DNA of 64,000 nt from positions 186,001-250,000 of the IMG/VR virus record IMGVR_UViG_3300023278_002893; one strand, written 5' to 3'. The position numbers and the translations under genes are program-made. Of the stretch, positions 1,810-50,880 are shown piece by piece (positions within the stretch are counted from its first letter, which is position 1; the number at the start of each line of letters is the position of its first letter). The notes under the pieces were generated by a model that saw only the letters and a program-made list of their open reading frames with translations, had not been told where the DNA came from and did not search any database. This stretch comes from a virus.

Positions 1810-2025
1810 TTATTCAGACTTTCTTGTAAAAATCAGCTGATCTTTTGTTATTTTAAATTCACCAATACTCGCTACAGCCTTCGATAAGAAGACAATAGTA
1901 TCTTGCCTATTAAGAAGCTCAACGGCTTGCTCAACGGCACGTTCCCGATCATCGCCGGCATCCACTATAGTAGGGCCAGATCCGACGAGTAAAAGAAAAC
2001 CAGAAGCTTTCTTGCGGTCAGCCAT
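1810..2025 (-). CDS. 71-codon frame, probably the 3' part of a frameshifted protease product
   Basis: Seen: ATG at 2025 has no convincing SD, whereas its neighbours have GGAGG-type sites. The same frame is open upstream, with no stop, all the way to the A10 run at 2137-2146 inside the end of the protease gene. A -1 slip there would append 109 residues to the protease and end with this frame's last residues. As a separate gene it would encode a 71-residue alpha/beta protein of unknown function. I think fusion by frameshift, or a homopolymer sequencing error, is more likely than independent initiation. Confidence 0.5.
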   Translation of the reverse strand: MADRKKASGFLLLVGSGPTIVDAGDDRERAVEQAVELLNRQDTIVFLSKAVASIGEFKITKDQLIFTRKSE

Positions 2026-2129
2026 AGGATTTAACTCGTGAGCTTTCCTAAATGCGTCTATTTTGTGTCTGAATCTTTCGACAGAGTTGTCGGAAATTAC
2101 GGAAGAAGCGTCAATTGACTGGCTGCTAA

Positions 2130-3545
2130 TTACGAATTTTTTTTTTCAGTCTCAATCACAAAATCCCTAAGAGAGTTTCGGAGAGACTGCGCCTCGTCAT
2201 GAAGTCGAACAATTTGATCTTGTCGTTCCGTTAGGGGCTCTACCGATGCGTCTACTTTATTAGTAACTGCGGGCAGAACAAGATCAGTGGTAAAACTATT
2301 ACCCGGTGTATTAGACAAGAATTCACGTACGGTCTTAGTAAATGCACCAGTGTCATCGGGGTTATTGGTCATAGAGTTTTTCTGATTTCGAAGACACTCG
2401 GGAGCTTTGGCGGTAGCACCAATAACAGGGCAGTGCTCCTCGAACAGAGCACAATAATGCTCCTGAATGACAGCACCTTCGGATTGATCTAGTGCGTTGT
2501 ACTTGGTCAGTCTCTTCTTGAAACTTACACAGGTACCGTCAATATTGCTCCCCACATAACCTGGACCAGGAAGACCACCCCCACTCCAACGAGCGGCTAC
2601 TTCCTTATTAGGGCTAACCGTAAGTACTCTGCTGATTCCTCCGGTCTCCTCATCAAGCTCGAGATAAAGTTTAGGGGCATCTTCGTCCGTCTGAACTGTA
2701 GAAACCTCTACTAAATTATCTGCCATTTCGACCTCCTTGTCAACCTGGGTTTCCCCTGCGGTTTCAGAAAGTACTACTTTGTGTCCTCGGAGATTATCAA
2801 TCATTTCTAGATCCACAACCTGCTCTCCCTTCTCCATCTGCTCACGTCGAGCTGCTGTCTCCATGATGATAGAGTGGGGGTTTGCAGGATTCTTAACAAT
2901 ACCCATCCCACTAAAGGTAATATGTCGAAGAACCCGCGCGACCTGTCGGACACCCATCTCCCTATGACCCGCCATTACCTTTACAAAACCACCTACCAGC
3001 TCATCAGGATCATACCCCAACGCCTGGGCCTCGTCACGTGTGATGATAGTATTGCCGATCTTAATGTCGAAGTCTTTAAAGAAACACTCCATGCTAACCT
3101 TCCACGCGCCTGCAGAAATTTCCTCTGCATACTCGGGGAAGCGCATCTTGTGGATAACACCTGCTACTGCAATGTCCATATCCACACCATCCAGATCCTG
3201 GGAAGCTTTTTCATAATCTGCCATAACTACCAGAGGATCAAACTGGCTACCATCCTTATACATATAAGCACATTCATAGATATGGCCGATGACCTTATCT
3301 TCCTCATGCTCGATATCAATGGCTTTATGCACTACAGTGTTGTGTGCCTTCATCATCTCTGATGGCAAGAAATGTGCACCATTCTTGTTAGTCCCTGCCG
3401 AGACCAGACAAGAGCGCATATATTGAAGATCCTGCTGCTTTTCATCAGGAAAAGCGAGCACGGCAGCTTTCTCCATCGCAGCCTTCTCTACCTCCTGCTC
3501 CACCTCAATGGGTGCATATACTCTAATCTTATTCTCTTCGACCAT
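2130..3545 (-). CDS. Prohead protease with C-terminal extension
   Basis: ATG at 3545, overlapping the stop of the preceding gene (TAATG) with GAGGACAA as SD; 471 aa. The N-terminal 230 residues resemble phage capsid maturation proteases: a motif IEHEEDKVIGHI (about residues 78-89) offers the catalytic His, and WKVSMEC (about 147-153) the Ser. Then follow NPANPHS and a long, probably scaffold-like, tail containing several Cys. In this family the protease cuts scaffold and capsid N-termini during head maturation. It sits between the portal and scaffold-like genes, the usual place. A possible -1 frameshift at its end would extend it to 578 residues. Confidence 0.75.
   Translation of the reverse strand: MVEENKIRVYAPIEVEQEVEKAAMEKAAVLAFPDEKQQDLQYMRSCLVSAGTNKNGAHFLPSEMMKAHNTVVHKAIDIEHEEDKVIGHIYECAYMYKDGSQFDPLVVMADYEKASQDLDGVDMDIAVAGVIHKMRFPEYAEEISAGAWKVSMECFFKDFDIKIGNTIITRDEAQALGYDPDELVGGFVKVMAGHREMGVRQVARVLRHITFSGMGIVKNPANPHSIIMETAARREQMEKGEQVVDLEMIDNLRGHKVVLSETAGETQVDKEVEMADNLVEVSTVQTDEDAPKLYLELDEETGGISRVLTVSPNKEVAARWSGGGLPGPGYVGSNIDGTCVSFKKRLTKYNALDQSEGAVIQEHYCALFEEHCPVIGATAKAPECLRNQKNSMTNNPDDTGAFTKTVREFLSNTPGNSFTTDLVLPAVTNKVDASVEPLTERQDQIVRLHDEAQSLRNSLRDFVIETEKKNS
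2137..2146 (-). other. A10 slippery run at the 3' end of the protease gene
   Basis: On the minus strand the codons GAA AAA AAA AAT TCG TAA contain ten consecutive A. A -1 slip on A AAA AAA changes the reading to AAA TTC GTA ATT and stays open for 109 codons into the next annotated frame. Such runs cause ribosomal or transcriptional slippage in bacteria. They are also common sites of sequencing error. Confidence 0.5.
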
Positions 3546-4004: not shown

Positions 4005-4262
4005 TTATGCTTGTGATATTGGGGATTCCGGCGCGCAAAGGCCTAAGTTATTTAAAATAAATCCCTCAGGGCACTCAAGAGTGCCTACCGGTTCAGCCCC
4101 CTCCACATTAGTAATAGGGATACAAGAACCCGATTTCGGATCAAAGACTTCCTCAGGTCTACACTGCGGATGGAACTCCTGAGGATCAGTTATCTGACTT
4201 TTGTCAGACCATCCTCTTAGGATTTTCCCAAGTTGGCCGCGATGATCTGGCGAGCATGCCAC
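4005..4262 (-). CDS. Cys-repeat extension frame, likely reached by -1 frameshift
   Basis: Seen: the frame overlaps the end of the 780-residue gene. Its only plausible independent start is GTG at 4262 with a weak AGGA. It encodes two further Cys pairs of the same design as the upstream gene (C34/C47 at x12 spacing; C64/C76 at x11). A G GGA AAA heptamer at 4223-4229 lies in the correct frame to carry ribosomes from the long gene into this frame, giving a fusion of about 850 residues. Function unknown; independent translation is the alternative. Confidence 0.55.
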   Translation of the reverse strand: MACSPDHRGQLGKILRGWSDKSQITDPQEFHPQCRPEEVFDPKSGSCIPITNVEGAEPVGTLECPEGFILNNLGLCAPESPISQA

Positions 4263-6559
4263 AAAAGATGTTCCTGAGCATCAGCGACTGCCTGGTCTGC
4301 ATACCCATCTATCTTAGACGACCTGGCCAATGCATTTCGCAATCTTGCAACATCCACAGATGCGGTATCGTAAGAATCCTCTACATCTGGGGTATGGTGC
4401 ATTAGATTACGTCGAGTATGTCCGACTAGGGAAGGAGGAAAAGCCTCGTTGGGTAGGTCCTTAGCGGCTACCTTGGACTTCTCCTTGTTTCCTTCCTCTG
4501 TCTCGTTTAGAATAACATCAAGAGCAGAGATTATCTTAGCAAGAGACATGTTACCCACAGTGTCTCCTACCGAGGCAGTGTTTCCTGGATTTTGAGGGCT
4601 GGAACCAGCAGGGCGACTTTTGTCCATGCTGTCCAGTGGGCGACAAATTTTATTCTTAGCATCCCAAATAGTGTCCTTAGGACAATCACTGGGGAGATTA
4701 AGTTTGCCAGCTGGAGCATCAACCAGTCCTTCTCTGTTTCCTGGGTTGGCATCAGCACTCTCATCTTCCGACTTACCCTTAAACGCACCCTTACGAGGCA
4801 TGCACTTTTTGGTAACAGGGTTCACGAACTGTCCCTCAGGACAACCAGGACCTCCCTTGTTACCCGGACCAGACGTGGTAGTCTGAGCCTCGTCCTCGGC
4901 GGACTTGGCTTTCTTCTTTTTCTTATTGTCTTTCTTGTCGTCTTTCTTATCTCCGTCTTTGCCCTTTTTCTTATCCAACATCTTCTGGATGAAGGGAGGT
5001 ATGAATGCATCTTCCTCACTGGACTTCGTATTCTTACTGGAGTCTAGAGGATCACAATCTTGCTTATCCGCATTCCAGATAGTACCCTTAGGGCAATCCT
5101 GAGGCAGTCTAGCAGGTCTTCCCTCAGGCAAGGGAGTGATGTCTCTCTTAGCTGCTTTGCTAGTATCCATTTCGATGCACTTACGTGCACCGAAGTTGTA
5201 CATCTGGCCGGGAGGACACTGGAAATTAACAGGGTCTCTTCGACCCTCAGGCTGAACAGCCTGCTCTGTCTTGACAGCATCGTAAAATCCCTGCACCTTA
5301 GAGCAATTCTTAGACTCGGAACTCCATTCCATTCCAGGAGGGCAGGGTCCTTGATTTACCTCAGAAGACTGCTCCTTCTCATAGGAAGACATCCTCGCCG
5401 CAACAATCTCCTCACGAATAGGACGCATTAGGTCATTGATTACTTCAGCAAAATCTAAAGAAGTTTCAGCCTTAGCAAAATTATTGACCTCAATCTCACA
5501 TGCCTTGGCACGTGCTAGAATCTTTCGTCTAAGTGATGCCTTCTCTGAGGAGGAGAGACCCTTCGCCTGGTTGAATCTGGACATCGCGTTTCTAACACGA
5601 GCGCAGGTGTCTAACGGAAACTTCCTCTTTCCAGGAACACCGAACGCACTGTCAGGCAGAGCATTACGCTGAGCGGATTTAATGGGCGCTGCAGACTCAT
5701 TACCTACCAAACTAGGAGAATCAACTGCGGTCGGGTCGTCGCCATACTCATAAACTTCCTGAGGAAGTGCGTGTCCAAAGTGCTGGGACTTATATCCCTT
5801 ACCAGAAAACTCCTCAACTATATAACCAGCTACATCGTGAGAATGTACCTCGTCCCCATAACCCTCGACGGAAGTCTTACCATTACCAGACGCATCTAGT
5901 GTTACTAGATGGGTGTGGCCGTGAAGGGGATCGGGGGAAGTCATAGCAACCTTACCACTCAGATAACGTGCCAGCTCCTGCTTCTCATCCTCAGTAAGTG
6001 CTGCGGATGACATCAGGGTGTCCTTGTTTAGAGGGATACACTGCCTAAGCTTAAAATCAAAAAGCTGCTTAGGGGGGCACTGGAAATTAACAGTGTCTCG
6101 GCGGCCCTCAGGATCCATATTAACAATCTCCTGATGTCCCCCAGTTCCTGGAGCAGCTGCTTCTTCTACTACATACTCGTTAGCCTCAGTCATTGCAAAC
6201 TCATCGCTAGTCTCAGACTCTGCTTCTTCCAGAGTAACACATCGTCTCTGGATAAAAGAAAAAGTCGTGCCCGCTGAGCACGACTCCGGTTCATCCATAT
6301 CATCTGCGTCAATTGCGACCTCGGTCTGGGACAGAACCTCCACAGACGCGGTACCTCGCCACTCAGGGCCGTGATCAACATTCACACTTCGGCTCTCCAA
6401 CGTGTGATCAATGCTGCCCATGGGAAGACATCGACCACTTGCAGGATCCTTACGATGTCCTTCGGGACAGTCTTCGTTCAACTCAATAGCGAACTCTCTC
6501 ATCTCTGTAAGAAAATCTAAAGGATTATTTCCCTCGTTTGATTTATTATTGTCGGTCAT
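4217..6559 (-). CDS. Large head-module protein with eight C-x12-C repeats
   Basis: 780 aa, ATG at 6559 with GGAGGACAT upstream. Eight Cys pairs have identical 13-residue offset: 31/44, 94/107, 161/174, 406/419, 448/461, 489/502, 573/586 and 626/639. They usually read CPxG near the first Cys and CxPL or CxPM near the second. Between them lie a His-rich stretch (HGHTH at 213, HSH at 239) and two copies of a domain common in phage head proteins: LPDSAFGVPGKRKFPLD...RNAMSRFNQ (about 301-360) and a divergent LPNEAF...RNALARS (about 702-747). A Lys-rich low-complexity linker covers 525-552. It follows the portal gene. Function unknown; the Cys pairs could be small metal or disulphide knots. Confidence 0.75.
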   Translation of the reverse strand: MTDNNKSNEGNNPLDFLTEMREFAIELNEDCPEGHRKDPASGRCLPMGSIDHTLESRSVNVDHGPEWRGTASVEVLSQTEVAIDADDMDEPESCSAGTTFSFIQRRCVTLEEAESETSDEFAMTEANEYVVEEAAAPGTGGHQEIVNMDPEGRRDTVNFQCPPKQLFDFKLRQCIPLNKDTLMSSAALTEDEKQELARYLSGKVAMTSPDPLHGHTHLVTLDASGNGKTSVEGYGDEVHSHDVAGYIVEEFSGKGYKSQHFGHALPQEVYEYGDDPTAVDSPSLVGNESAAPIKSAQRNALPDSAFGVPGKRKFPLDTCARVRNAMSRFNQAKGLSSSEKASLRRKILARAKACEIEVNNFAKAETSLDFAEVINDLMRPIREEIVAARMSSYEKEQSSEVNQGPCPPGMEWSSESKNCSKVQGFYDAVKTEQAVQPEGRRDPVNFQCPPGQMYNFGARKCIEMDTSKAAKRDITPLPEGRPARLPQDCPKGTIWNADKQDCDPLDSSKNTKSSEEDAFIPPFIQKMLDKKKGKDGDKKDDKKDNKKKKKAKSAEDEAQTTTSGPGNKGGPGCPEGQFVNPVTKKCMPRKGAFKGKSEDESADANPGNREGLVDAPAGKLNLPSDCPKDTIWDAKNKICRPLDSMDKSRPAGSSPQNPGNTASVGDTVGNMSLAKIISALDVILNETEEGNKEKSKVAAKDLPNEAFPPSLVGHTRRNLMHHTPDVEDSYDTASVDVARLRNALARSSKIDGYADQAVADAQEHLLWHARQIIAANLGKS
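4223..4229 (-). other. Candidate -1 ribosomal frameshift site G GGA AAA
   Basis: Read on the minus strand the zero-frame codons are TTG GGA AAA TCC TAA. They form an X XXY YYZ heptamer two codons before the stop. After a -1 slip the next codons are ATC CTA AGA, in frame with the stop at 4005-4007. A six-bp hairpin (TCTGAC-AAAA-GTCAGA) starts 14 bases downstream. The lambda gpG-T frameshift uses the near-identical G GGA AAG. Confidence 0.55.
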
Positions 6560-8454: not shown

Positions 8455-10299
8455 TTATCTCCCCTTCTTCTTCTTCGGCTTAGGTTTCAAAACTGCGGCT
8501 CCGCTTAGACGTACCTTCTTATCGTTCCCCGCCTCTGACATAACTCTTCTCTTGAAGGCATCGGGATCACGGGCTATTTCCATCTTATCCATTATAGCCT
8601 GAGGAATAACTCCTCCAAAAGCATCTTCCATCTCTAAGGATTCTTTATCGCGGCTTCGACCACGTACCACCCCTCCGTGGTGCATGATGTCCTCTGGCAT
8701 ATCCTCTGTCCAGATCAAATCATAAATACAACGAGCTGCTAGAAAAAAAGCGGTGTAAAGATCCTTCTTCTGCTTCCCGTGACCTCCACCTTTAGGAACA
8801 TCGAAATGCTGTTTTCCAGTAGGAGTCTCAGTAAGCTCGATAGATTGCATCTGGTTCTTCATATCCCTAATCGTGTGCCAAGAGTCCTCTTCAGGAATGG
8901 TACCGTCCGTTAATGCTTTCAGTTTTTCACTCTGGGGAACCGATGGGAATAGAATGTCTCGATGCTCTAGTAACCGTAAAGCGTCGTAATTAGATTCCGC
9001 AATGAACTCAGCAGAAAAATTGCACATCGTTAGCATATCACGACCTGCTTTTAACTGGTGAACCTCATCCTCGGGATCAAGTATGGGACCTGCTGTATGG
9101 TTGGTGGGATTCTCTGCAAGAATGTCTTTGATGGCGAGGCCGCCACCCTGGGAATCCATATAGATATGGGTAACATTGAATGCTGAGCAAAGGTCTTCGA
9201 TGGTTTGGGCCATCTTGGGAAAGGGTTGATTATGAATTTCTAATGCGTGAACGACTTTAGCGGGCTGTCCAATCTCTACAACCGCAATGGCAAAAGAGTC
9301 TTCACTTCTAGCAGGATCTATACCTAAACAATAAGACTTACCGGGAGATCCCGCAACCTGAGTTGAGAAAGATTTACTACTACATGCTTCCAACAGCGAC
9401 GCTCTGTAAAAAGCATCTGTGTCGGGAATAAAAGCAGCCTCGTATTCCATCCGGAACTCAAGGCTAGACATTTCTTTTCTTGCGGACTCAACGTTATCTT
9501 TATCGAGGAATCCGGTCTCTAGTAATTTATACGGAACTCTAAAAGCTGCGTACTTAGGATTACCTGCACGCATCTCATCACGGTAGATCTTGTACAGATC
9601 ATACATGTGATTAAAAGTGAAATAACCAGATGATGTAATTATAATTTGGTTGGCGCTGCTGTCAGCGTCCAGCTCCTCTTGGGTGATCAACCCACGCTTA
9701 AGAAGCTCCTTCTGCCTTTTGATCCTCTCTACATTCTCCATAGGATTGGCTACGGTAGCTGCCATAGGACGAATGACCATGTTAAAAATCTCGGGTGGAA
9801 TGTGGGGAAACTCATCACAAACAATAGTAAAGAAACGTGAACCACGAATCTTAGTACCGTCGCCTAGAGGTATCGCTTGTATTAACGACCCCGGCTTACC
9901 CGCCACTGACTTAAATCTAATATAACAATTGTCTGATTGCTGGGTAGGTTTCTTCTCACACGCAGCTCGTAGGATCGGAGACCCTTGATACAAGCGCGTG
10001 CACTCATCAAAAATAAACTTAGATTGACGAAAAGTGGGTGCAATTAATCCTATCTTGTGTCCTGGATACAACATCCCTTTCAGTACAGCAAGCACAGCTT
10101 GGAGAAATGTTTTACCTGAACCACGACACATAATGGCGATGACGTTGCTCTTAGACCACATAGAGCGCAAGACTACTTTTTGGATTTTTGAAAGCTTGAG
10201 TCCCAATAGGTCTTCTGCTGCCATCTCGGGATATTCTCTATAGAACTCAATCAGCTCTGCTGCAGCTGATCTTAATTCCGGATCATCTTCGTTTAGCAT
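8455..10299 (-). CDS. Terminase large subunit
   Basis: 614 aa. Walker A CRGSGKT lies at residues 58-64, and Walker B with catalytic Glu (FFTIVCDEF) at about 156-164. The RNase H-like nuclease domain starts at GIDPARSEDSFAIAVVE, and further acidic residues follow (IYMDSQGGG). The C-end is Lys-rich. It is the packaging motor: the ATPase translocates DNA into the prohead and the nuclease cuts concatemers. It overlaps the putative small subunit upstream (TAATG-type junction) and abuts the portal downstream, the standard order. Confidence 0.95.
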   Translation of the reverse strand: MLNEDDPELRSAAAELIEFYREYPEMAAEDLLGLKLSKIQKVVLRSMWSKSNVIAIMCRGSGKTFLQAVLAVLKGMLYPGHKIGLIAPTFRQSKFIFDECTRLYQGSPILRAACEKKPTQQSDNCYIRFKSVAGKPGSLIQAIPLGDGTKIRGSRFFTIVCDEFPHIPPEIFNMVIRPMAATVANPMENVERIKRQKELLKRGLITQEELDADSSANQIIITSSGYFTFNHMYDLYKIYRDEMRAGNPKYAAFRVPYKLLETGFLDKDNVESARKEMSSLEFRMEYEAAFIPDTDAFYRASLLEACSSKSFSTQVAGSPGKSYCLGIDPARSEDSFAIAVVEIGQPAKVVHALEIHNQPFPKMAQTIEDLCSAFNVTHIYMDSQGGGLAIKDILAENPTNHTAGPILDPEDEVHQLKAGRDMLTMCNFSAEFIAESNYDALRLLEHRDILFPSVPQSEKLKALTDGTIPEEDSWHTIRDMKNQMQSIELTETPTGKQHFDVPKGGGHGKQKKDLYTAFFLAARCIYDLIWTEDMPEDIMHHGGVVRGRSRDKESLEMEDAFGGVIPQAIMDKMEIARDPDAFKRRVMSEAGNDKKVRLSGAAVLKPKPKKKKGR

Positions 10300-15653: not shown

Positions 15654-16190
15654 CTAGAGGGTACCTGTGAGGGGATGGGTACCAGTGTATCTGAATCTCT
15701 GATGGATACAATAACTAACATCCCCATGCTTTTCGTCCAACGCAACGTCTCTCTGGATAACCTTGAAATCAAATTCAGACCATTTAGGGAAAAAAGTGTC
15801 TCCCACATATCCCTGGTTATTGGGGATATTGGTAATATAAAGGCGATCTACTCTCTCCAAACACTGCTCGTACAATGACTGCCCTCCTATTATAAATACC
15901 TCATGGTTGCGCATTCCTGCAAACTGTAAAGCGCCATCTATGTTATTAAATACGGTTGCGCCTTTTACTTTGTAGTCAGGATTAGATGAAAGTATGATAT
16001 TATCTCTCTTGGGAAGGGAACATCCAATAGATTCGTAGGTCTTACGCCCCATTACAACTGCATGACCTTTGGTGGATTCTTTGAACCAAACCATATCAGA
16101 AGGTATATGCCAGGGCAGCGTACCGTCCTTACCAATAACCATACGACCTTCCTTGTCCTTGGTGTATGCTACAATCATAGACAAGATCAT
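15654..16190 (-). CDS. Dihydrofolate reductase
   Basis: 178 aa. Conserved DHFR motifs in order: [32 protein letters not shown] (N-terminal substrate loop with the PWH-D core), [14 protein letters not shown] (NADPH site), and [12 protein letters not shown]. It regenerates tetrahydrofolate consumed by thymidylate synthase, whose gene lies immediately upstream with an ATGA stop/start overlap, so the two are translationally coupled. Confidence 0.95.
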
Positions 16191-16984
16191 ACTGCAACCT
16201 CCGCCTTAATGGGCGGGTAATGTCTGTAGTTGAGGAGAGAGATATCCTCATATCTGAAATCATCTATATTCTTGATGTCAGGATTAAGTAAAATCCTAGG
16301 GTGCTCGTGGGGACGACGTGTTAGTTGGGTAGTAACCTGCTTCATGTGGTTGTTATAAATATGAACATCACCGAAGGTATGGATAAACTCCCCCACCGCT
16401 AAATCACAAACCTGGGCGATCATCATCGTGAGTAATGAATAACTCGCAATGTTAAACGGCACTCCCAGAAACACATCGGCGCTACGTTGGTACATTTGGC
16501 AACTCAACTTCCCATCATTGACGTAGAACTGAAATAGTAAATGGCAGGGCGGGAGCTTCATGTTTGGAACTTCACTGACGTTCCACGCATTGACGATCAG
16601 TCGTCTTGAATTTGGATTACTCTTGATCTCCGCAATGACGTCCGATAGTTGATCCACCGGCTCTGTTCCCGGACGTCCTTGCCAATTACGCCACTGAGAT
16701 CCATACACGGGACCGAGGTCTCCATTCTCATCCGCCCACTCGTCCCAAATCCTAACTCCGTTGTCGTTGAGATACTTGATGTTTGTATCACCGCTAATAA
16801 ACCAAAGGAGTTCATGGGCAATAGATTTGAAGTGGATCTTCTTAGTGGTGACTAACGGGAATCCTTTGGCTAGGTCGAACGCCATTTGGTATCCGAATCT
16901 ACTGATAGTTCCCGTGCCTGTCCTATCTCCCTTACTTGTACCACCATCTTTTACAAAGGAAAGTAGATCTAGGTATTCCTGCAT
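16187..16984 (-). CDS. thyA: Thymidylate synthase (ThyA type)
   Basis: 265 aa, matching the E. coli enzyme end to end: [49 protein letters not shown], the catalytic [26 protein letters not shown], and the C-terminal IKAEVAV. Asn in FNIASY is retained, so it should methylate dUMP rather than hydroxymethylate a pyrimidine. It makes dTMP using methylene-tetrahydrofolate. First gene downstream of a near-consensus promoter. Confidence 0.97.
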
Positions 16985-17122: not shown

Positions 17123-17686
17123 TTAAATATTGTCTTTTTTTATTAGATTGTCTTTTGCCCAAAGAGGCTGAAGGTTAGTATAATGTACCGCCTTCAAAAA
17201 ATCACCCCTATCAGACAGGTCAAAAGATGCCAAAGGTTTAACATGGTCTATATGCCACTCACCGTGGTTATTCCATGACATCCCCGGTTGGAACTTGGAT
17301 TCTAAATGATGTCTTAGAGTTTGTAAAGAACATCCCAAATCTTTCATGGCCGAACCGTTACGTCCAAAACGTAAGGAATTGACTACTCTACTTCTTAAAA
17401 GGCAGCGTATTTTAAAATCTAAATCCTTATGGTATCTGTTCTTTTTATATTCACGGTAATATCTACGCTGTTGGTCTTTGTGAGATTGCCGATATTGTTT
17501 TCTATAAACACTCAACTTCTCCCTATTCCCAGTAGCGTATAATTTGGCGTATTCTAATCTATCTACTTTATTTTTATTGTAGTACTCCTTAAAACAAGAC
17601 TTGCATCTAGGTGTGGGTTTATCTTTTGTCTGGTAAAAATCAGAAATATTTTTGGTTTTACCGCACCCGTTACAAAACTTGGTCAT
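17123..17686 (-). CDS. HNH homing endonuclease with N-terminal zinc ribbon
   Basis: 187 aa, ATG at 17686 overlapping the previous gene's stop. CNGCGKTK...PRCKSCF forms a four-Cys ribbon (residues 5-31). A basic helical linker follows, then the HNH core GEWHIDHVKPLASFDLSD with NLQPLWAKDN, a conserved group of phage HNH enzymes. It ends just before the thyA promoter. A frameshifted paralogue occurs at 23130-23868. Confidence 0.85.
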   Translation of the reverse strand: MTKFCNGCGKTKNISDFYQTKDKPTPRCKSCFKEYYNKNKVDRLEYAKLYATGNREKLSVYRKQYRQSHKDQQRRYYREYKKNRYHKDLDFKIRCLLRSRVVNSLRFGRNGSAMKDLGCSLQTLRHHLESKFQPGMSWNNHGEWHIDHVKPLASFDLSDRGDFLKAVHYTNLQPLWAKDNLIKKDNI

Positions 17687-22774: not shown

Positions 22775-23155
22775 CTATAAGTAAAATTCGTGTATTCCTT
22801 GATTATACGGATCGTCACTAATATCACAAATCTTAAAATCCTTAGACTTGGAATTAGACTCTACAATTACATATCCGTCAATTAAATGAATTAGAATATC
22901 TATACCATCTTCTGTTTCTTCTAGAAAACCAACAGAGCTGCAAATTTGATGGGCTTTGTCGTACTTCATAATACCTTTATCCCAAAAGAGAAGTTCGACA
23001 TCGTCTAAACAAAGCATAGTGAGAAGTTCTTGTCCTAGATTTTCCATGCCTACTAATAGAATCTTCTTGCCCCTGAAATCCTCTTTACCGTATGCACTAC
23101 GCACAGCTCCTCGAAGAAAGTTAAATATCTTAGTCGCATTTATTGTCATTGTCAA
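22775..23155 (-). CDS. Small Rossmann-like protein, 126 aa
   Basis: Contains FRGKKILLVGMENLGQELL (about 27-45), close to the NAD-binding beta-alpha-beta of amino-acid dehydrogenases (V-x-G-x-x-x-x-G), followed by VELLFWDK, but no catalytic domain. Probably nucleotide-binding or a relic of a dehydrogenase. It overlaps the HNH gene end by 26 bases and precedes the FAD oxidoreductase by one gene. Confidence 0.6.
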   Translation of the reverse strand: MTMTINATKIFNFLRGAVRSAYGKEDFRGKKILLVGMENLGQELLTMLCLDDVELLFWDKGIMKYDKAHQICSSVGFLEETEDGIDILIHLIDGYVIVESNSKSKDFKICDISDDPYNQGIHEFYL

Positions 23156-23868
23156 GTTCCACGGATTTACCTTTACGCAGGTTGTCTTCTGCCCAAAGAG
23201 GTTGAAGATTAGTATAATGACATACTATGTGGAGTTGCTTTTCATCTGCTAAATCAAAAGATGATAAGGGTCTAATATGATCGATATGCCATTCGCCATA
23301 ATTTTCCCAGGACATTCCCGGTTGAAATTTAGACTCCAGATAGGATTTTAGGTTTTCTATACTGCAGCCTAGGTACTCATTTAAATTTTTGTCTTTTCGG
23401 ATATCTTTTAAAGCAGATCTTAGCCTAGATCTCATTGTAACTGCGATACGAAAATTGATATCGTTTTTGAACTTATACCTACGATACTCGTTAGATCGTT
23501 TTCGTACATGTTCTTTATTTTCTTTTAGCCACGCACGGTTGTATTCTTTAACGTGATTAGAATTTTTTGCTCTCCATCTTTTCAAACGTTCCTTATTTTC
23601 TATCTTGTGTTTAGTAAGGGAAGTTTGTGTGTATTGTTTTACTTTTTCGGGATTTTTCTTTCGCCATTCTGCTTGGTATTTTGAATTTATTCCTCTCCAT
23701 TTCTTATTACGAGATAATTCTGTTTGTTTTGTTCTTTTCATAATATTCTTTGCGGTGGATTTTATAACACTCCCTACACCAACTCGATAAACTATCTTTA
23801 GCGGTTTTAGCCACATAAAAATAATCTACAGATTTAGAAATTTTACATCTTCTACAGGTTTTCGTCAT
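23130..23868 (-). pseudogene. HNH homing endonuclease disrupted by a frameshift
   Basis: Seen: ATG at 23868 opens a 53-residue frame with the same N-terminal zinc ribbon as the enzyme at 17123-17686 (CRRCKISKSV...WCRECYK) and stops at 23707. The remaining protein, including GEWHIDHIRPLSSFDLAD and NLQPLWAEDN, continues in the +1 frame to 23130. Joining at AGAATTATC as RLSRNKKW restores a full-length homologue. One extra base therefore splits the gene. It could be a decayed mobile gene or a sequencing error. Reinitiation at an internal ATG could still make the nuclease half. Confidence 0.7.
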
Positions 23869-36984: not shown

Positions 36985-37746
36985 CTATAGGGATAATATC
37001 TCAGGTTCATCCTCAGAAACACACACCATGTGTTCGATGTGGGTGGCTCTGGAGTAGTCCTTAGTTATAATCGTCCATTTGTCAGGTAGTACTCCTAGTT
37101 CCGCTCGCTGGTACAAAAGCATGGGTTCGAGGCAAAATACCATTCCGGGCTCCAAATCTATACCTTTATTGGATGCTCCAAAATTGGGTACTTGGGGCTC
37201 TTCGTGTACCTTCTGCCCGATAGCGTGTCCGCAGAACTGAAGTACATTCTCATATCCGCTGTGGTAAATAGAGGACTGTATAGCGTTACTGATGTCTCCT
37301 AGTTTGTTTCCGGGACGGCATTTATCAATACCCGCATCTAGTGCCGCACGGGTTGCGTCCATAATCTTCTGATCTTTCTCAGAAGCATCTCCTACGGTAA
37401 ACAATCTTGCAAAATCCGCACACCACCCGTTCAGTACTACTCCGCAATCAATAGAAAGCATATCTCCCTCTTCGAGAGGTTCATCATCGGGTATCCCATG
37501 AACGAGCACGTGGTTTTTGGAAAAACAAATACTAGCAGGGAAATCTGGAACTCCGGGAGGTCCAGGGTACCCTTTGAAAGCAGGCACCGCTCCGTGGTCT
37601 CTAATGTAGGAATCTGCCATCTCGTCTAGAAATGTTCCAGTTACTCCGGGGGCAGCGTTCTCCACTAGTAATGCTAAACAGCCGGAAAGAACTTTCGCAC
37701 TCTCCCGCATCTTCACGACCTGCTCGGGTGTTTTAATTACGGACAC
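36985..37746 (-). CDS. Methionine aminopeptidase (type I)
   Basis: 253 aa, GTG start. Metal ligands are visible: DCGVVLNGWCADFARLF gives the two Asp, FCGHAIGQKVHEEP the His, and PMLLYQ and HIEHMV the Glu residues. Removes initiator Met from nascent proteins, and in a phage may ensure efficient processing of virion proteins. Overlaps the transglycosylase by 14 bases. Confidence 0.92.
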   Translation of the reverse strand: MSVIKTPEQVVKMRESAKVLSGCLALLVENAAPGVTGTFLDEMADSYIRDHGAVPAFKGYPGPPGVPDFPASICFSKNHVLVHGIPDDEPLEEGDMLSIDCGVVLNGWCADFARLFTVGDASEKDQKIMDATRAALDAGIDKCRPGNKLGDISNAIQSSIYHSGYENVLQFCGHAIGQKVHEEPQVPNFGASNKGIDLEPGMVFCLEPMLLYQRAELGVLPDKWTIITKDYSRATHIEHMVCVSEDEPEILSL

Positions 37747-38476
37747 GGTTGGGGAATTCTCCAGGAAGAATGAGAGTTACCTCAGTTAGACCTTCGCGTA
37801 CATCAACAATTACATCTACGTCGTCCTCTAGTCCTAGCAAACGAAGGACTTCTACGAGGGCTGCGTATTTACCCTCTGCCTTCTCAGAAGTATCAAAGGG
37901 ATCGAGAGAACCTCGGTGCTTCTCTGACCCGAGAAGTTCATGCCAGGCTATATACCACTGGGTTACCTCAGGTGCGTAATGTGCTGCTTGGGATCTGTAT
38001 CTAGAAGGCAGTGCTTCAATTGCTGCAAGTGCGTTAGCGTGTCCTCCATGAGTAATCACAAGGTACGCAGCTTTACCCCCAGAATTGTAGAAAGTAAGTA
38101 CAGCCTCTAGTTGGACCTTCTTGTCAGTTACCTTACGATACTTCTTGTGGAACAACCACCAGAGAGTCGCACAAACTGCTTTCACTCCCAGATCAGGATC
38201 TGACGCATCTCTCTTAGTAAAGTTTTCCAGTTCCAACGGATCAGGGCAATCAGGCATAGCAGCAATTTGAGCCACTTGCCTAGAACCGATCCCTGTCATC
38301 TGCCCCAAACCGTAAGCCCCTGTGGGACTAACTGCTTCGGGTTTGAATCTAGATTCTTGGGTGATGAGGGCGCGAACGAGATTAGGATCCAGATCAAAAG
38401 ATTTGGAGTGCTCTTCTATGTATATTCTGATTTCTCTTTCGCGACTCTTCGCACCCTGGGAAATAGTTACTGACAT
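37733..38476 (-). CDS. Soluble lytic transglycosylase-like protein
   Basis: 247 aa. LDPNLVRALITQESRFKPEAVSPTGAYGLGQMT is the SLT motif with the catalytic Glu in TQESRF, and AVLTFYNSGGKAAY the second conserved block (N-S/A-G-x-x-A). No signal peptide. Cleaves peptidoglycan: either a tail-associated lysozyme for DNA entry or the endolysin. Overlaps the GMP reductase-like gene by one base. Confidence 0.85.
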   Translation of the reverse strand: MSVTISQGAKSREREIRIYIEEHSKSFDLDPNLVRALITQESRFKPEAVSPTGAYGLGQMTGIGSRQVAQIAAMPDCPDPLELENFTKRDASDPDLGVKAVCATLWWLFHKKYRKVTDKKVQLEAVLTFYNSGGKAAYLVITHGGHANALAAIEALPSRYRSQAAHYAPEVTQWYIAWHELLGSEKHRGSLDPFDTSEKAEGKYAALVEVLRLLGLEDDVDVIVDVREGLTEVTLILPGEFPNRVRN

Positions 38477-39546
38477 TAGTCCCTCCGTGGGTTGCTTTCG
38501 TATCCGTAGTTGGCGGACACCTGCATAAATTCAGCTTTGCGTTGTAGTTCTTTGATATCTTCAGCACCTGCATAAGTTAGTCCGCTTCTTAGACCTCCGA
38601 GGAGATCGTTAATGGTATCCTGTGCAGAGCCCGTCACCGGGGCCCAGAAGTCAGTTCCCTCAGCAACTGTCTTCTCCTTCAAACCCCCGTAGAAATCGTT
38701 CTGGAAATCCGCACTTGCCTGTCCTCTGTACTTAGCTTGTCTTACAGGAACTCCCTCAGAAATGAAAGAGCAGTCTTCTATTTTATCCCCTGTGGTATAT
38801 ACTGCATTACGTGGGTCTCTTTTTTCAGCAGCACTCTCCTCAGTCAGTGCAAATATTTTACCTATCATTACCGTACAAGCCCCTACCGCAAGAGCCTTTA
38901 CAATGTCCGAAGAGTTTCGAATCCCTCCGTCTGCAATAATTGGTACTCCAAGGTGTACAGCTTCATCCGCGCAGTTCTTAATCGCTGTAAATTGCGGGAC
39001 TCCGAACCCTGTGACGTTACGCGTAGTGCATGCAGCTCCTGGGCCGATACCAACTTTAACTGCATCCGCACCTGCATTAACAAGATCATGATAAGCACGC
39101 GCTGTGCATACATTTCCCGCGATGACTTCCAGGCTTGGACAAGTATTTTTAAGATAACTTATGGTATTAATCATTAACTCAGAGTGTCCATGGGCTACGT
39201 CCAATACTACGCCTTTTAAGTGATGCGCCTCGACAAATCTTTCTAATTCTTTAATACTCTCTTTACCTAAACCAGAACTTAAGAAACAGTTCGGAAAGTC
39301 TGACAACCACTTTATCTTCTGAGCAGAATCTGAAAATCTGTGAAATAAAGGAATTCCTCCATTCCCCACAACGACATGTGCAAGCTCCGTACCTATAACA
39401 GTATCCATGTTTGCAGGAATTAAAGGCAGTTCTATTTTTGTATTCTTTGTAAGCCACGTAGTTAATTGGGGCTCGGCCCTGCTACCGACATTACTATAAC
39501 GAGGTACTAAGCATACATCATCAAAAGTTAAACCTCTGCTTATCAT
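38476..39546 (-). CDS. GMP reductase/IMP dehydrogenase family enzyme (CBS-less)
   Basis: 356 aa from ATG at 39546 (GGAGGTACATC). TIM barrel with GLTFDDVCLVPRYSNV, the catalytic-Cys loop VGIGPGAACTTRNVTGFG, IADGGIRNSSDIVKALA and a C-terminal LLGGLRSGLTYAGAEDIKEL. Length and the absence of CBS domains fit GMP reductase (GMP to IMP) better than full IMP dehydrogenase (IMP to XMP). It would shift purine pools during infection. Preceded by a LAGLIDADG gene whose stop overlaps its start. Confidence 0.85.
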   Translation of the reverse strand: MISRGLTFDDVCLVPRYSNVGSRAEPQLTTWLTKNTKIELPLIPANMDTVIGTELAHVVVGNGGIPLFHRFSDSAQKIKWLSDFPNCFLSSGLGKESIKELERFVEAHHLKGVVLDVAHGHSELMINTISYLKNTCPSLEVIAGNVCTARAYHDLVNAGADAVKVGIGPGAACTTRNVTGFGVPQFTAIKNCADEAVHLGVPIIADGGIRNSSDIVKALAVGACTVMIGKIFALTEESAAEKRDPRNAVYTTGDKIEDCSFISEGVPVRQAKYRGQASADFQNDFYGGLKEKTVAEGTDFWAPVTGSAQDTINDLLGGLRSGLTYAGAEDIKELQRKAEFMQVSANYGYESNPRRD

Positions 39547-40019
39547 GATGTACCTCCGTGATTTAATTCGCTCATTTCCAAATAACAACTATCCCTCTTC
39601 TCGGTGATTTCTTTAGGTAAAGTACTACCCTTTCCCCTCCCACCTTGAAACCGGGGAATCTTCATAAATCTATATGCTAGTTTTATCTGTTCTTTTTTAG
39701 TTACACAATAAGGGAATAGCAACTCTAAAATCTCTAATGTTTTATGGCTACAAACTGACCAGCCATATACTATCTTTCCTTTGACTGTTCGTCTTTTTAT
39801 TTCTAAACATTGCCCATCAAAAATCTCAGCAAGTTTTTCTATTGTGGGTTTGTGTGTCATTCTCACAGAAAGACGCAGTGTATAAGAAGGACTTCTTTCC
39901 CGTCTAGTTTTTGTCTTAGCTCCAGGATAAACTTTACCAACACAATTTACCTTTTGAATGAAAATACTACCTTCTCCATCCACTATTCCCGCAGCCCATG
40001 CTAAATCTGTTTTCTTCAT
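39543..40019 (-). CDS. LAGLIDADG homing endonuclease
   Basis: 158 aa. DLAWAAGIVDGEGSIFIQK (residues 4-22) is a LAGLIDADG signature; a single copy means it should act as a homodimer. Basic throughout, with LRLSVRMTHKPTIEKLAEIF as the strand-helix unit. Sits tightly upstream of the GMP reductase-like gene, a typical place for a free-standing homing enzyme. Confidence 0.88.
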   Translation of the reverse strand: MKKTDLAWAAGIVDGEGSIFIQKVNCVGKVYPGAKTKTRRERSPSYTLRLSVRMTHKPTIEKLAEIFDGQCLEIKRRTVKGKIVYGWSVCSHKTLEILELLFPYCVTKKEQIKLAYRFMKIPRFQGGRGKGSTLPKEITEKRDSCYLEMSELNHGGTS

Positions 40020-40993: not shown

Positions 40994-42310
40994 TTACTCC
41001 ATAGACGCAGCGAGAGTAAGTCCATTACTCACCGCGTGCAGTGGATCCGCTGCGTGCCTAACCTCTGAAATCTCGATAGGCATGTTCACCGCGCCCAGGG
41101 CCTGTTCGAACTTCTGAATGAAGCCTCGCGGTAGAGATGTACCTCCTGCCACTATAAGTGGGACAGGATCCCTGAACTTGGGTAGAGATGGAGAACTTGC
41201 TAGATCGTGTGCTATGTTCTCTAGGGTATATACTAGGAGGTTACCGTAATACACAGAGATCGCAGCTTGGATCTGATTTCCCGGCTCCGGATTCATAAGA
41301 TCTAGATCTGGGTGTTCCTTCTCCTGCTGGATAATGCTAGGAGTAAGGTTAGTTGCCGTGGCTGCCTGTTGATCTACCCAGTCCCCCGATCTAGAGGTAC
41401 TAAAGGTAACCACAGGATCACCTGCGGAAAGAACAGCCACGTTCATCATTCCCGCACCGCAAGATATTGCGATGCCTGTAAGTCCTTCGTCAAGCAACTC
41501 CGAATAAGCAAGAGCTTCCGCTTCATTCATCGGTTGGGCATCAAATCCTAAACTATCAATAAAAGACTTGATCATGTCCTGGTGAAAGAGTTGATCGAAT
41601 TCAGCATCAATGGGTTTGGCAGGGACAGAGAATACCAAAACCTCATTCTCGGTCTTAGGCTCGCCTACAATCCTCTTAATGAGTTCTTGTAGGATAGGAA
41701 ATGCTTCACTTTCCTGGGGAGCTAAAACTCCACGATGCATGGGTCTCCGAGTGGTGATGTGTCTTTCGTTAGCCATTAGGAATGCATCTTCACCGATGAC
41801 ATAAAAACCGTCGTCCTTTTCTATGTAGGGGGCTTTTCGATCATCTAACCCCTTCTTGAGAATGCTTCGATTGATCTTAGATTTCGGCTCTATTTTGATA
41901 AAGCAATCTCGCATCTTCTTGAAACCAATCTTACCATCATTACCAAAGCGTCCGGCAACGAGGAAAGAGGTTCCGACATCAAGACCTACTCCGTTTGGAA
42001 CATCTTCATCAGGCATAATGAACTCCTTCTTCTTGAGAATTTCTCTCTTCTGAATATCTACAGGCGGTTGAAAGGTAGGTACTACTACCTCTTCTTCCTG
42101 TTCTTCCCCCTCCTGCATTGGAGGTGGAGCAGGTTTTTTCTTTGTATCTTTTTTGCGCCGTTTCTTTCCCACTTGCCGACGTACATCTTCCTTGTGACGT
42201 GTCCTTACGTTCCCGGAAGGAAGTTTAGACGCATCAATGGTTCGGATACCGTCTTTACCTGTCTTAACTACTCCCTTCGCCTCCAAATCCCGAACGCGTG
42301 GATCCGCCAT
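40994..42310 (-). CDS. Actin-like ATPase (MreB/ParM superfamily)
   Basis: 438 aa. Actin-fold motifs in order: phosphate-1 NGVGLDVGTSFLVAG (about 106-120), connect-1 NEAEALAYSELLDEG, phosphate-2 GIAISCGAGMMNVAVL, adenosine loop LIVAGGTSLPRGF, and a C-terminal HAVSNGLTLAA. A charged 95-residue N-extension (KKRRKKDTKKKPAPPP) precedes the fold. Such proteins polymerise into filaments with ATP and segregate plasmids or position phage replication. Coupled to 42310-42840, which could be its adaptor. Confidence 0.85.
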   Translation of the reverse strand: MADPRVRDLEAKGVVKTGKDGIRTIDASKLPSGNVRTRHKEDVRRQVGKKRRKKDTKKKPAPPPMQEGEEQEEEVVVPTFQPPVDIQKREILKKKEFIMPDEDVPNGVGLDVGTSFLVAGRFGNDGKIGFKKMRDCFIKIEPKSKINRSILKKGLDDRKAPYIEKDDGFYVIGEDAFLMANERHITTRRPMHRGVLAPQESEAFPILQELIKRIVGEPKTENEVLVFSVPAKPIDAEFDQLFHQDMIKSFIDSLGFDAQPMNEAEALAYSELLDEGLTGIAISCGAGMMNVAVLSAGDPVVTFSTSRSGDWVDQQAATATNLTPSIIQQEKEHPDLDLMNPEPGNQIQAAISVYYGNLLVYTLENIAHDLASSPSLPKFRDPVPLIVAGGTSLPRGFIQKFEQALGAVNMPIEISEVRHAADPLHAVSNGLTLAASME

Positions 42311-46318: not shown

Positions 46319-46696
46319 CTATAAGCTTTCTTTAAACTGGAAAGTTCCTAGTACCTCAAGTCGATCACTGAATATTTTGACAGCCTTACGAAATAACCTC
46401 TCAACAGCATCTGCATTTTCAAAAGTAAGATTCGCGTATTCCACTATTTGAGACTCTCTATTACGACTAAAGTCTGAAAATTTCAAAGCTCTCTTTTTGA
46501 TTACACCAGGACGCTCGATTTTTTCTCTTATCTGGAAAATTTCCAGATAGAACTCGTATCCAAACTGTATGTGCTCTTCAATGATTTTATGTTCTTCATC
46601 TGTGACGTCCAAACTTAAGTTTATGGAATACAATCGTCGCAGATCCGACTCCAGATCTCTATTACGTGTATAACTCTTTTTAATGTTAATTTTCAT
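46319..46696 (-). CDS. Hypothetical helical protein, 125 aa
   Basis: ATG at 46696 overlapping the HNH stop. Lys/Arg/Glu-rich, helical throughout, with NRDLESDLRRLYSINLSLDV and ENADAVERLFRKAVKIFSD. No recognised family. Confidence 0.55.
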   Translation of the reverse strand: MKINIKKSYTRNRDLESDLRRLYSINLSLDVTDEEHKIIEEHIQFGYEFYLEIFQIREKIERPGVIKKRALKFSDFSRNRESQIVEYANLTFENADAVERLFRKAVKIFSDRLEVLGTFQFKESL

Positions 46697-47400
46697 TTTT
46701 CTTTCCCCTTTGCCTGAAATTCTTTTTCAGTCATTGTGCCCTTCCTTAAATTACAACTTGGGCAGGTTAGTGCTATATTTTCTTTAGTGTTACTTCCATT
46801 ACGACTGAGTGGTGTTTTGTGATCTGCGTGATAATCTGTAGGTAGTTTGGTTCCACAATAATAACACCTATTGTTCTGTATTTTCAATAAATCTTCTAAA
46901 TCTCCAATTGTAAACCAATTACTTCTTCTACCCTTCCTACGACGCCTCAACAAACTATGAACTTTATAATATCCCAAAGTTCTAGATTTACCATGGGTAG
47001 TTACTGCTTCTAATTGTCCGCAGCCGCAACTTCTTGTTTTCCCAGATCTTAATGTTGCGCCTTTAGTGACGTGAATGTTTCCACAATCACAAAGGCATTT
47101 GAACCTCATGTTTCCCCACTTGTCTTGATGAGAAAATTCTAACACTTTCAACTTTCCAAAACGACCACCCTTACGTACAGGTTTAAGTTGTCTTTTGTGG
47201 GTAGACTCTGCGATGAAGCACCCACAACTTCTAGTGTGTCCTCCACGAAGAGATTGACCTAGGACCTTCTTTTCTTTTCCACAATCACAAATACAATCCC
47301 AGGTAGTTCTATTTGAAAGTTTAGAACTGGATAACCCCACAACCAGAAGTTTGCCAAAACGTTTTCCAGTATGATCGTATTTTAACGGTCTCTTACTCAT
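46693..47400 (-). CDS. HNH homing endonuclease with paired zinc fingers
   Basis: 235 aa, same architecture as 14033-14782: GKRFGKLLVV and GRFGKLKVLEF modules with CICDCG...SCGC and CLCDCGN...SCGC clusters, then CYYCGTKLPTDYHADHKTPLSRNG...LTCPSCN. Inserted between the DnaX-like gene and the replication operon with 4-base overlaps on both sides. Confidence 0.9.
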   Translation of the reverse strand: MSKRPLKYDHTGKRFGKLLVVGLSSSKLSNRTTWDCICDCGKEKKVLGQSLRGGHTRSCGCFIAESTHKRQLKPVRKGGRFGKLKVLEFSHQDKWGNMRFKCLCDCGNIHVTKGATLRSGKTRSCGCGQLEAVTTHGKSRTLGYYKVHSLLRRRRKGRRSNWFTIGDLEDLLKIQNNRCYYCGTKLPTDYHADHKTPLSRNGSNTKENIALTCPSCNLRKGTMTEKEFQAKGKEK

Positions 47401-48759: not shown

Positions 48760-49026
48760 TCACTGTCGATTGTGTCGCCCATTTATAATATTCCTCAATC
48801 TGCGAAGCTTGAAAGGCCATCTGTCTTTTAGTATCCGGGTACATTGTTCTCGACTAACGGCAGAATACACATCTCCGCCTAAGAGTCTAATAATTATCTT
48901 CAGTCGCTCTCGTACTATATAAACACCAACTTCAGAAAGGTGCTTTTTATTTACGAGATTGATTACAACACTGATGGACTTATGCAGTCGCTTCTTCTCT
49001 ACCGGTGTGAGAGTTTTGTAGAGCAT
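48760..49026 (-). CDS. Hypothetical basic protein, 88 aa
   Basis: ATG at 49026 inside the end of the DERA gene, with a GAGGAG site, overlapping 47 bases. Helical and basic; ends RRLRNIINGRHNRQ. Could bind nucleic acid. Function unknown. Confidence 0.55.
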   Translation of the reverse strand: MLYKTLTPVEKKRLHKSISVVINLVNKKHLSEVGVYIVRERLKIIIRLLGGDVYSAVSREQCTRILKDRWPFKLRRLRNIINGRHNRQ

Positions 49027-49699
49027 TAAACTCCTCCATTATCTTCACACCTGCACTAGTTCCTAGCCTGTCTGCTCCCGCTTCAATCATCGCCAGTGCG
49101 GTATCCAAATCACTTATACCCGCCGAGGCTTTGATCAGGGGGCGAGAAGCATTGCCCCTTAGTTCTGACCAACGCGCAACATCTTCTACCTGGGCTCCGG
49201 CACTGCCGAACCCGGTGGAAGTTTTAATGTAGTCTATGTGCGGCGCGTAGTCCTTGATATAATGGAAAATGGTATCCTTTTCTTTCTCGGTCAGATAGCA
49301 AGTCTCCACGATACATTTTAACGTTCCTCCAGCATTGGAAGCAGTTTTGCCCATCAACTGGAGTTCTTTAATTATAAGATCAAACTTCTTGTTTTTCAAT
49401 TCACCATAGTTCAGAACAAAGTCAATCTCGTCAATCCCACGCCCAAAGAAATAACGTGCCTCTTCCACCTTAAGTTGGAGAGGGATGTTGCCGTGGGGAA
49501 ATCCTACAACTGTACATACTTTGATGTGTGAATAACCTGTTGTATTTAACACCTGTCTAGCAGGCACTGCCATATATGGAGATAAACAGATTGCTGCGAA
49601 TTCATATTCAATTGCTTCGTCCAGCAATTTCTCGAACTGTTCTTCAGTGGCATTCGGCTTGAGAAGCGAATGATCTATGTAAGTATTAAGAGGTCTCAT
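48980..49699 (-). CDS. deoC: Deoxyribose-phosphate aldolase (DERA)
   Basis: 239 aa from ATG at 49699. TIM barrel with YIDHSLLKPNATEEQ, KVCTVVGFPHG, LKCIVETCYL (first active-site Lys), DYIKTSTGFGSAGA (Schiff-base Lys) and IKASAGI. Splits deoxyribose-5-phosphate to glyceraldehyde-3-phosphate and acetaldehyde, or joins them. It may salvage host DNA sugars or limit toxic intermediates. Overlaps the gene upstream by 14 bases. Confidence 0.92.
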   Translation of the reverse strand: MRPLNTYIDHSLLKPNATEEQFEKLLDEAIEYEFAAICLSPYMAVPARQVLNTTGYSHIKVCTVVGFPHGNIPLQLKVEEARYFFGRGIDEIDFVLNYGELKNKKFDLIIKELQLMGKTASNAGGTLKCIVETCYLTEKEKDTIFHYIKDYAPHIDYIKTSTGFGSAGAQVEDVARWSELRGNASRPLIKASAGISDLDTALAMIEAGADRLGTSAGVKIMEEFNALQNSHTGREEATA

Positions 49700-49967
49700 T
49701 ACGTCTCTCTTTTTCTTTTTCAATGGCTTGATTGAATACCGTAGATGCTCTATCTAAATGTTCATCGGTCCAATACTGGAGAAAGAATACCTGGTTCCCA
49801 AATAAGAGAGCAGTGCCTGCCCCCTCGACGTCGTAAAAATCAAAACCAAGTTCCTCTCCCCGTTCCTGGGTAAAAGTAAAACCTTTCTCCGTAGTAGTAA
49901 CCTTATTACCATCAGAATCAACATCACCTACTACATAAGTGCCCTTGCTTTCTATAATGTGCGTCAT
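49686..49967 (-). CDS. Hypothetical protein, 93 aa
   Basis: ATG at 49967, overlapped by the DERA start. Beta-rich with TFTQERGEELGFDFYDVEGAGTALLFG and a charged helical end. No family recognised. Confidence 0.55.
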   Translation of the reverse strand: MTHIIESKGTYVVGDVDSDGNKVTTTEKGFTFTQERGEELGFDFYDVEGAGTALLFGNQVFFLQYWTDEHLDRASTVFNQAIEKEKERRNETS

Positions 49968-50403: not shown

Positions 50404-50880
50404 TCAGACTGCGAATTTTTCGTCATTGGCTTGTTCCACGCGGCGGGCCATAGTAATCTCTCTATCAAAGAAGAATCTAATCTCTCTATCAACATCTACA
50501 TCGTTAGCGCTGCCGTGTATTGCGTTTAGAGTAATGTTATTGTGATCCCCGAAGTCGTGTCGTATAGTCCCAGCCGTTGCCTCTGCGGGATGTGTCGCAC
50601 CAATTAATTCCCGAAACTCACTAATACCGTCGTGTTTCATTATTACCATTGGCCATACCGGACCCGCACATATAGTGGTGATCAGGTTAGGAAAGAAATC
50701 CTTATCCTTGTGCTCTTCATAGAAGAACTCCGCGCCCTCCTTGTGAATCTGAACTGATTTGACAATCAATATTGCAAATCCAGCATCTTCGATTCTGGAA
50801 ATAATCTCACCCACTTTTCTGGCTCTAACGGCGTGGGGCTTAATCATCCCCAATGTTATGTGATCTACGGTCTCATTCAT
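50404..50880 (-). CDS. ndk: Nucleoside-diphosphate kinase
   Basis: 158 aa. GMIKPHAVRARKVGEIISRIEDAGF, the active-site NAIHGSAN (phospho-His) and ATHPAEATAGTIRHDFG all match NDK. Converts dNDPs to dNTPs with ATP, completing the dNMP kinase-NDK route. The 4-base overlap couples it to the gene upstream. Phage NDKs are uncommon; here it is full length. Confidence 0.95.
   Translation of the reverse strand: MNETVDHITLGMIKPHAVRARKVGEIISRIEDAGFAILIVKSVQIHKEGAEFFYEEHKDKDFFPNLITTICAGPVWPMVIMKHDGISEFRELIGATHPAEATAGTIRHDFGDHNNITLNAIHGSANDVDVDREIRFFFDREITMARRVEQANDEKFAV

Follow-up and report, generated by a model that had tools for sequence, protein, structure and literature searches.

A conserved slip site predicted to extend a cysteine-repeat protein of the head module in very large bacteriophages

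The gene for a 780-residue, cysteine-rich protein almost certainly ends in a programmed -1 ribosomal frameshift site that would give rise to a C-terminally extended form, as indicated by sequence comparison across relatives. The best explanation of the observations as a whole, to which we assign a probability of about 0.95, is that ribosomes slip back by one base on the heptamer G GGA AAA, making forms of 780 and ~851 residues. A fraction of the ribosomes would slip just before the UAA stop, with the P-site moving from GGA to GGG and the A-site from AAA to AAA, probably aided by an RNA stem that starts right past the stop. After slipping, they would read 72 further codons, and the protein of ~851 residues would carry ten Cys-pair units instead of eight. 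Unslipped ribosomes would release the 780-residue form, which is presumed to be the main product. The phages carrying the site are a family of very large, mostly uncultured bacteriophages.

Gene order and the 780-aa protein

The window, i.e. the whole stretch of 64,000 nucleotides that was analysed, corresponds to positions 186001-250000 of a 297,725-base virus record. On the minus strand, the gene order is terminase, 625-aa gene, 780-aa gene, two small ORFs, 471-aa gene, and a 355-aa head-protein counterpart. The genes of this series that lie inside the window are as follows.

8455-10299, minus strand: terminase large subunit (PHROG match, E=1.7e-28)
Between the terminase and the 780-aa gene, minus strand: 625-aa gene, in the portal position
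4217-6559, minus strand: 0-frame gene of 780 aa, with Cys-pair repeats, a DUF6582 domain and a C-terminal stretch common to all relatives
2130-3545, minus strand: 471-aa gene, in the protease position

The 355-aa protein lies past the window edge, and its close counterpart in the relative L061 gives a hit to a major head protein family (E=1.6e-12). No family match was found for the 625-aa gene; the labels portal and protease are taken from gene position alone. The 780-aa gene thus stands among structural genes (terminase, portal position, protease position, major head protein), and this order bears out its placement in the head module, as proposed in an earlier, sequence-only reading of the window.

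The 780-aa ORF begins with ATG and ends in ...LGKS* (final codons TTG GGA AAA TCC TAA). Its protein matches DUF6582 (E=1.1e-7) and the CBM_14 profile (1.3e-15), both above the curated cut-offs, and we take its C-terminal stretch, shared by all relatives, for a second copy resembling DUF6582. The match to CBM_14, a peritrophin-A chitin-binding domain, differs from the known domain in spanning one Cys pair and ~22 of the 53 profile positions. A whole CBM_14 domain with the full Cys set was rejected for the 780-aa protein, whose best stretch covers profile positions 28-49, and CBM_14 was likewise rejected for the window's extension (15.8 bits vs a cut-off of 22.1). No sequence match to the 780-aa protein was found among solved structures.

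Other ORFs of these phages were noted by reading. HNH-type endonuclease ORFs are scattered among structural and metabolic genes of the window (17123-17686, 23130-23816, 46693-47400), and another separates the 625-aa gene from the Cys gene in L015 (3354-3893), a place where the window has none. The terminase large subunit ORF of L061 (399-3470) encodes 1023 aa and has an apparent intein-like insertion compared with the 614-aa window protein. Metabolic-type genes in the window (16187-16984, 38476-39588, 48980-49723, 50404-50880, 36985-37746) resemble thymidylate synthase, IMP dehydrogenase, deoxyribose-phosphate aldolase, nucleoside diphosphate kinase and methionine aminopeptidase, and a 438-aa ORF at 40994-42310 reads like an actin/ParM-type ATPase.

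The slip site and the -1 extension

The end of the 780-aa gene and the frame that follows it contain these features.

4223-4229, minus strand: slippery heptamer G GGA AAA, in phase (preceded by TT, followed by TCC TAA)
4217-4219, minus strand: 0-frame stop TAA, one codon past the heptamer
4005-4226, minus strand: -1 frame extension, 73 codons and a stop (dN/dS 0.09 against the nearest full relative, L015)
4122-4163, minus strand: extension Cys pair 1 (CRPEEVFDPKSGSC), both Cys invariant in 13 aligned extensions
4035-4073, minus strand: extension Cys pair 2 (CPEGFILNNLGLC), both Cys invariant in 13 aligned extensions

A ribosome that moved back by one base after AAA would translate K-ILRGWSDKSQITDPQEFHPQCRPEEVFDPKSGSCIP...CPEGFILNNLGLCAPESPISQA and then meet a stop. 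The -1 frame is open down to the stop at 4007-4005, which amounts to 73 codons with the shared Lys and 72 beyond it, and it includes the pairs C-RPEEVFDPKSGS-C and C-PEGFILNNLGL-C, both resembling those of the 0 frame. The sequence-only reading had reported exactly this, 72 further open codons with two more Cys pairs of the same design. It had also placed G GGA AAA two codons before the stop; the heptamer is indeed present at 4229-4223 in the right phase, with one sense codon in between and not two.

Such an arrangement is rare in the window. Among its 198 stop-to-stop ORFs of at least 80 codons, one, the 780-aa gene with its G GGA AAA, has GGGAAAA or AAAAAAA directly before the last sense codon together with an open -1 extension, a background that refers to the window only. 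The sole other AAAAAAA matches near a stop belong to the 471-aa gene and an HNH-type ORF.

Conservation of the slip site in relatives

Relatives were collected by IMG/VR scans with the protein, the extension, the neighbouring 625-aa protein and profiles of each frame, and by one scan of GTDB genomes. This yielded 22 metagenomic contigs with 21 distinct sites; L011 ends 35 nt past the stop, and statements on the extension cover the remaining 20 sites. An X XXY YYZ heptamer is found in 0-frame phase at the same place in all 21 sites (nine G GGA AAA and 12 A AAA AAA, clade members not being independent of each other). The 0-frame stop, TAA or TAG, follows one sense codon past the heptamer in 20 of the 21 sites and immediately after it in L084, and the -1 extension measures 73-294 codons in the 20 sites not cut off. 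On the tree, the heptamer switched between the GGG and AAA types approximately three times (bootstrap 2-3; well-supported branches alone force one switch), and despite these switches it is slippery throughout. A scan with the 0-frame end only, not selected for the extension, found neither in-frame fusions nor extension-free versions.

The conservation of the heptamer in homologues, suggested earlier as a check, is therefore complete among the distinct sites. What had been called hard to explain by chance can now be said more firmly, as an in-phase heptamer with an open -1 frame at 21 of 21 sites excludes chance. Homologues with a -1 stop or a strong separate start had been named as evidence that would speak against a frameshift; the relatives show no -1 stop ahead of the Cys pairs, and no separate start recurs consistently among them.

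Outside this set, L037-L041 encode more distant versions of the 625-aa protein (about 44-49% identity) and are without the Cys gene at this place. Among named phages, the sole match spans 62 residues in Streptomyces phage Frankenweenie, in a region where no head genes are annotated. The L061 contig (WJJK01000045.1) was probably misbinned: it comes from this phage lineage but has been assigned to a Candidatus Altiarchaeales MAG.

The two heptamer types also bear on the idea that RNA polymerase slippage, and not the ribosome, yields the second frame. We consider this very improbable. It would suit the A7-A8 runs in 12 sites and the A9-A10 run conserved in the neighbouring 471-aa gene, but nine sites, including the window, have G3A4, no known polymerase slip site, and the codon phase, the stop next to the heptamer and the stem downstream typify slipping by the ribosome. 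As for the ribosomal slip itself, in E. coli G_GGA_AAG is highly shift-prone, and A_AAA_AAA is much less shifty than A_AAA_AAG (PMC5009743). Since every heptamer found here ends in A, and A_AAA_AAA is the weaker form in E. coli, the efficiency may be low, or the tRNA-Lys of the host may differ.

Coding evidence for the -1 frame

Conserved coding continues in the -1 frame past the 0-frame stop. Across the 13 aligned extensions, the four Cys, an FDP motif and their surroundings are kept, and dN/dS ranges from 0.07 to 0.36 in the computable pairs, many pairs being saturated at synonymous sites. Judged from these alignments, the extension is under purifying selection. Over the 12 codons that precede the heptamer, -1 frame identity averages 0.18, compared with 0.68 in the extension core, and a -1 stop falls within these 12 codons in seven of 18 sites. 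By this comparison, similarity in the -1 frame starts at the heptamer and not upstream of it.

This pattern has consequences for the view that the extension is a separate gene, an 85-aa ORF translated from its own GTG at 4262 without any frameshift. Within the window's clade (L012, L015, L009), the GTG at -36 is preceded by an AGGA-like sequence ~8 nt upstream. However, the stretch from the GTG to the heptamer is unconserved in the -1 frame, and a gene with its own start would have no need of a conserved heptamer. Moreover, 11 of the 15 sites with directly following Cys pairs have no ATG, GTG or TTG from the point where the -1 frame opens up to the first Cys pair (the exceptions are L012, L015, L009 and L026), which removes independent initiation as a general explanation, and in several sites the -1 frame opens just 1-6 codons upstream of the slip point. 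A separate gene thus seems extremely improbable; the GTG with its weak ribosome site could at most add to the extended product in the window's clade. The chance of an assembly or sequencing error, or of a recent frame-breaking mutation in one long gene, is close to nil: a single added base would join both ORFs, but 21 distinct sites, assembled separately, show the same arrangement, both frames are under selection, and a decaying gene would lose the slip site and the RNA stem.

RNA structure downstream of the slip site

For programmed ribosomal frameshifting, a structured stimulator is in general well supported by the comparison of relatives. Compared with its nearest full relative, the window shows almost no DNA change over ~80 bases starting at the heptamer. 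In the window's clade, the 30 codon columns that follow the slip have a synonymous codon identity of 67-100%, vs 14-46% in the next 48. Three elements were considered in the window.

4168-4214, minus strand: stem S1, GGATGG (4214-4209) with CCATCC (4173-4168), candidate stimulator common to relatives
4193-4208, minus strand: inner hairpin TCTGAC-AAAA-GTCAGA, 77.8% of cells paired in the subgroup
4181-4216, minus strand: alternative outer stem, GAGGAT/ATCCTC, which the window's sequence adopts in its MFE fold

The inner hairpin starts 14 nt past the heptamer, where the sequence-only reading had placed a 6-bp hairpin. The stimulator is probably more than this hairpin, and its commonest element is S1, which encloses the hairpin in the window's subgroup. 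S1 (GGAUGG/YCAUCC core) starts 6-8 nt past the heptamer and is 94.4% paired in nine sequences, with a compensatory change from A-U to G-C in L061. A second subgroup has a register-shifted stem of 10-11 pairs, GCACUGAGGGU with ACCCYCAGUGC, whose partner lies 6 nt further on (87.9% paired). Taken together, structure 5-9 nt past the heptamer was found downstream, with S1 in 14 of the 15 sites that have an aligned Cys start; measured against a null of reshuffled synonymous codons, the S1 score is unusual at the 5% level or better in 12 of 15 sites. In the window, S1 alone is no better than this null (178/400) and it is the total folding energy that is unusual (13/400), a pattern that holds for the window's three-member clade. 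L057 folds weakly, and L030, L031 and L059 form a group with a different downstream sequence.

In the window itself, the stimulator may take the form of S1 or of the alternative outer stem, both around the inner hairpin. The alternative stem was rejected as a shared element, being poorly kept in the relatives (66.7% of cells paired). We also rejected a pseudoknot pairing TCCTCAGG with CCTGAGGA, which only the window's closest relatives keep intact (65.3% paired across nine sequences), and a Shine-Dalgarno stimulator upstream of the heptamer, seen by eye in some relatives only. No match was found in Rfam.

Extension payloads and a second frame change

What follows the Cys pairs differs among relatives. 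The window's extension ends there, many relatives add a short module ending SAAIAICRSRLKQ, and L030, L031 and L059 have an insert ahead of the Cys pairs. The extensions of L009 and L084 contain a ferritin/Dps domain (PF00210; E=1e-21 and 1.4e-18), a domain that L061 encodes nearby.

L009:8037-8918: ferritin/Dps, in the extension
L084:4237-4984: ferritin/Dps, in the extension
L061:8438-8953: ferritin/Dps, in a separate neighbouring gene

An internal ATG in L084 could also start the ferritin part. An AlphaFold2 model of the extension was of low confidence (pLDDT 59, pTM 0.24) and suggests small hairpins across the Cys pairs. By analogy with known phage systems, the extended form is plausible as a minor virion component. 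We lean slightly towards both forms entering the head or neck, where a minority of subunits would display the extension as a module for binding or stabilisation.

A second frame change is indicated at the end of the 471-aa gene.

2137-2146, minus strand: A10 run ending the 471-aa gene
1813-2145, minus strand: -1 continuation of the 471-aa gene, ~110 conserved codons

An A9-A10 run ends this gene in all 15 relatives examined. Its -1 frame has no universal start; L061, L020 and L042, for example, are without ATG, GTG or TTG until >200 nt past the stop. No shared stem is evident by eye. The long A run is compatible with either origin of the frame change, a -1 slip by the ribosome or slippage of the polymerase. 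The odds seem to us about even that the head module uses two successive programmed frame changes, one in the Cys-repeat gene and one in the protease-position gene, the first serving as a socket that puts varied C-terminal modules on a fixed minority of the copies of one head protein. If so, these modules would include the DNA-binding or iron-binding ferritin/Dps domain of L009 and L084.

The recoding site is well supported and apparently undescribed; the kind of mechanism is known, and the gene family and payloads are new to the open-access papers searched. Open-access titles and abstracts yielded no precedent for chitin-binding phage capsids, jumbo-phage head frameshifts or Dps frameshift fusions. 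Gene callers would report the 780-aa protein without its tail, or a spurious small ORF. Our results suggest frameshifting as a means by which large phages control the amount of a head-protein module. As the slip point is conserved while the payloads change, with ferritin/Dps in two cases, the idea of frameshift-gated display modules can be put to a direct test.

Comparison with known systems

The sequence-only reading had compared the site with gpG-T of lambda. As to the heptamer this is apt, as gpG/gpG-T shares the G GGA AAR type and a -1 slip shortly before the first ORF ends. The comparison does not extend to function, because gpG-T is a tail chaperone absent from the virion (PMC5009743), with a different gene, position and product. 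A site of the lambda kind, in the tail module beside the tape measure gene, was rejected, the 780-aa gene being in the head module.

In gene 10 of T3 and T7 (10A/10B), a -1 slip near the end of a head gene yields a minor, C-terminally extended virion form (PMC5009743). Our site is similar in both the position of the slip and the C-terminal extension; however, gene 10 encodes the major capsid protein, whereas here a separate gene between the portal- and protease-position genes would be extended, and the sequences are unrelated. In lactococcal 936 phages, frameshifting adds a C-terminal module to the major tail protein (MTP-TpeX), where TpeX is, in several subgroups, a host-binding carbohydrate-binding module (PMC6669499). 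The 936 phages and the SPP1 tail protein share with our phages a programmed frameshift that adds a C-terminal module. They differ in that a tail tube protein receives a BppA-like CBM, whereas here Cys-pair units, a short module or ferritin/Dps would be added to a head-module protein. Judged by analogy, T3/T7 gene 10, SPP1 and 936 TpeX would be better functional parallels than lambda gpG-T.
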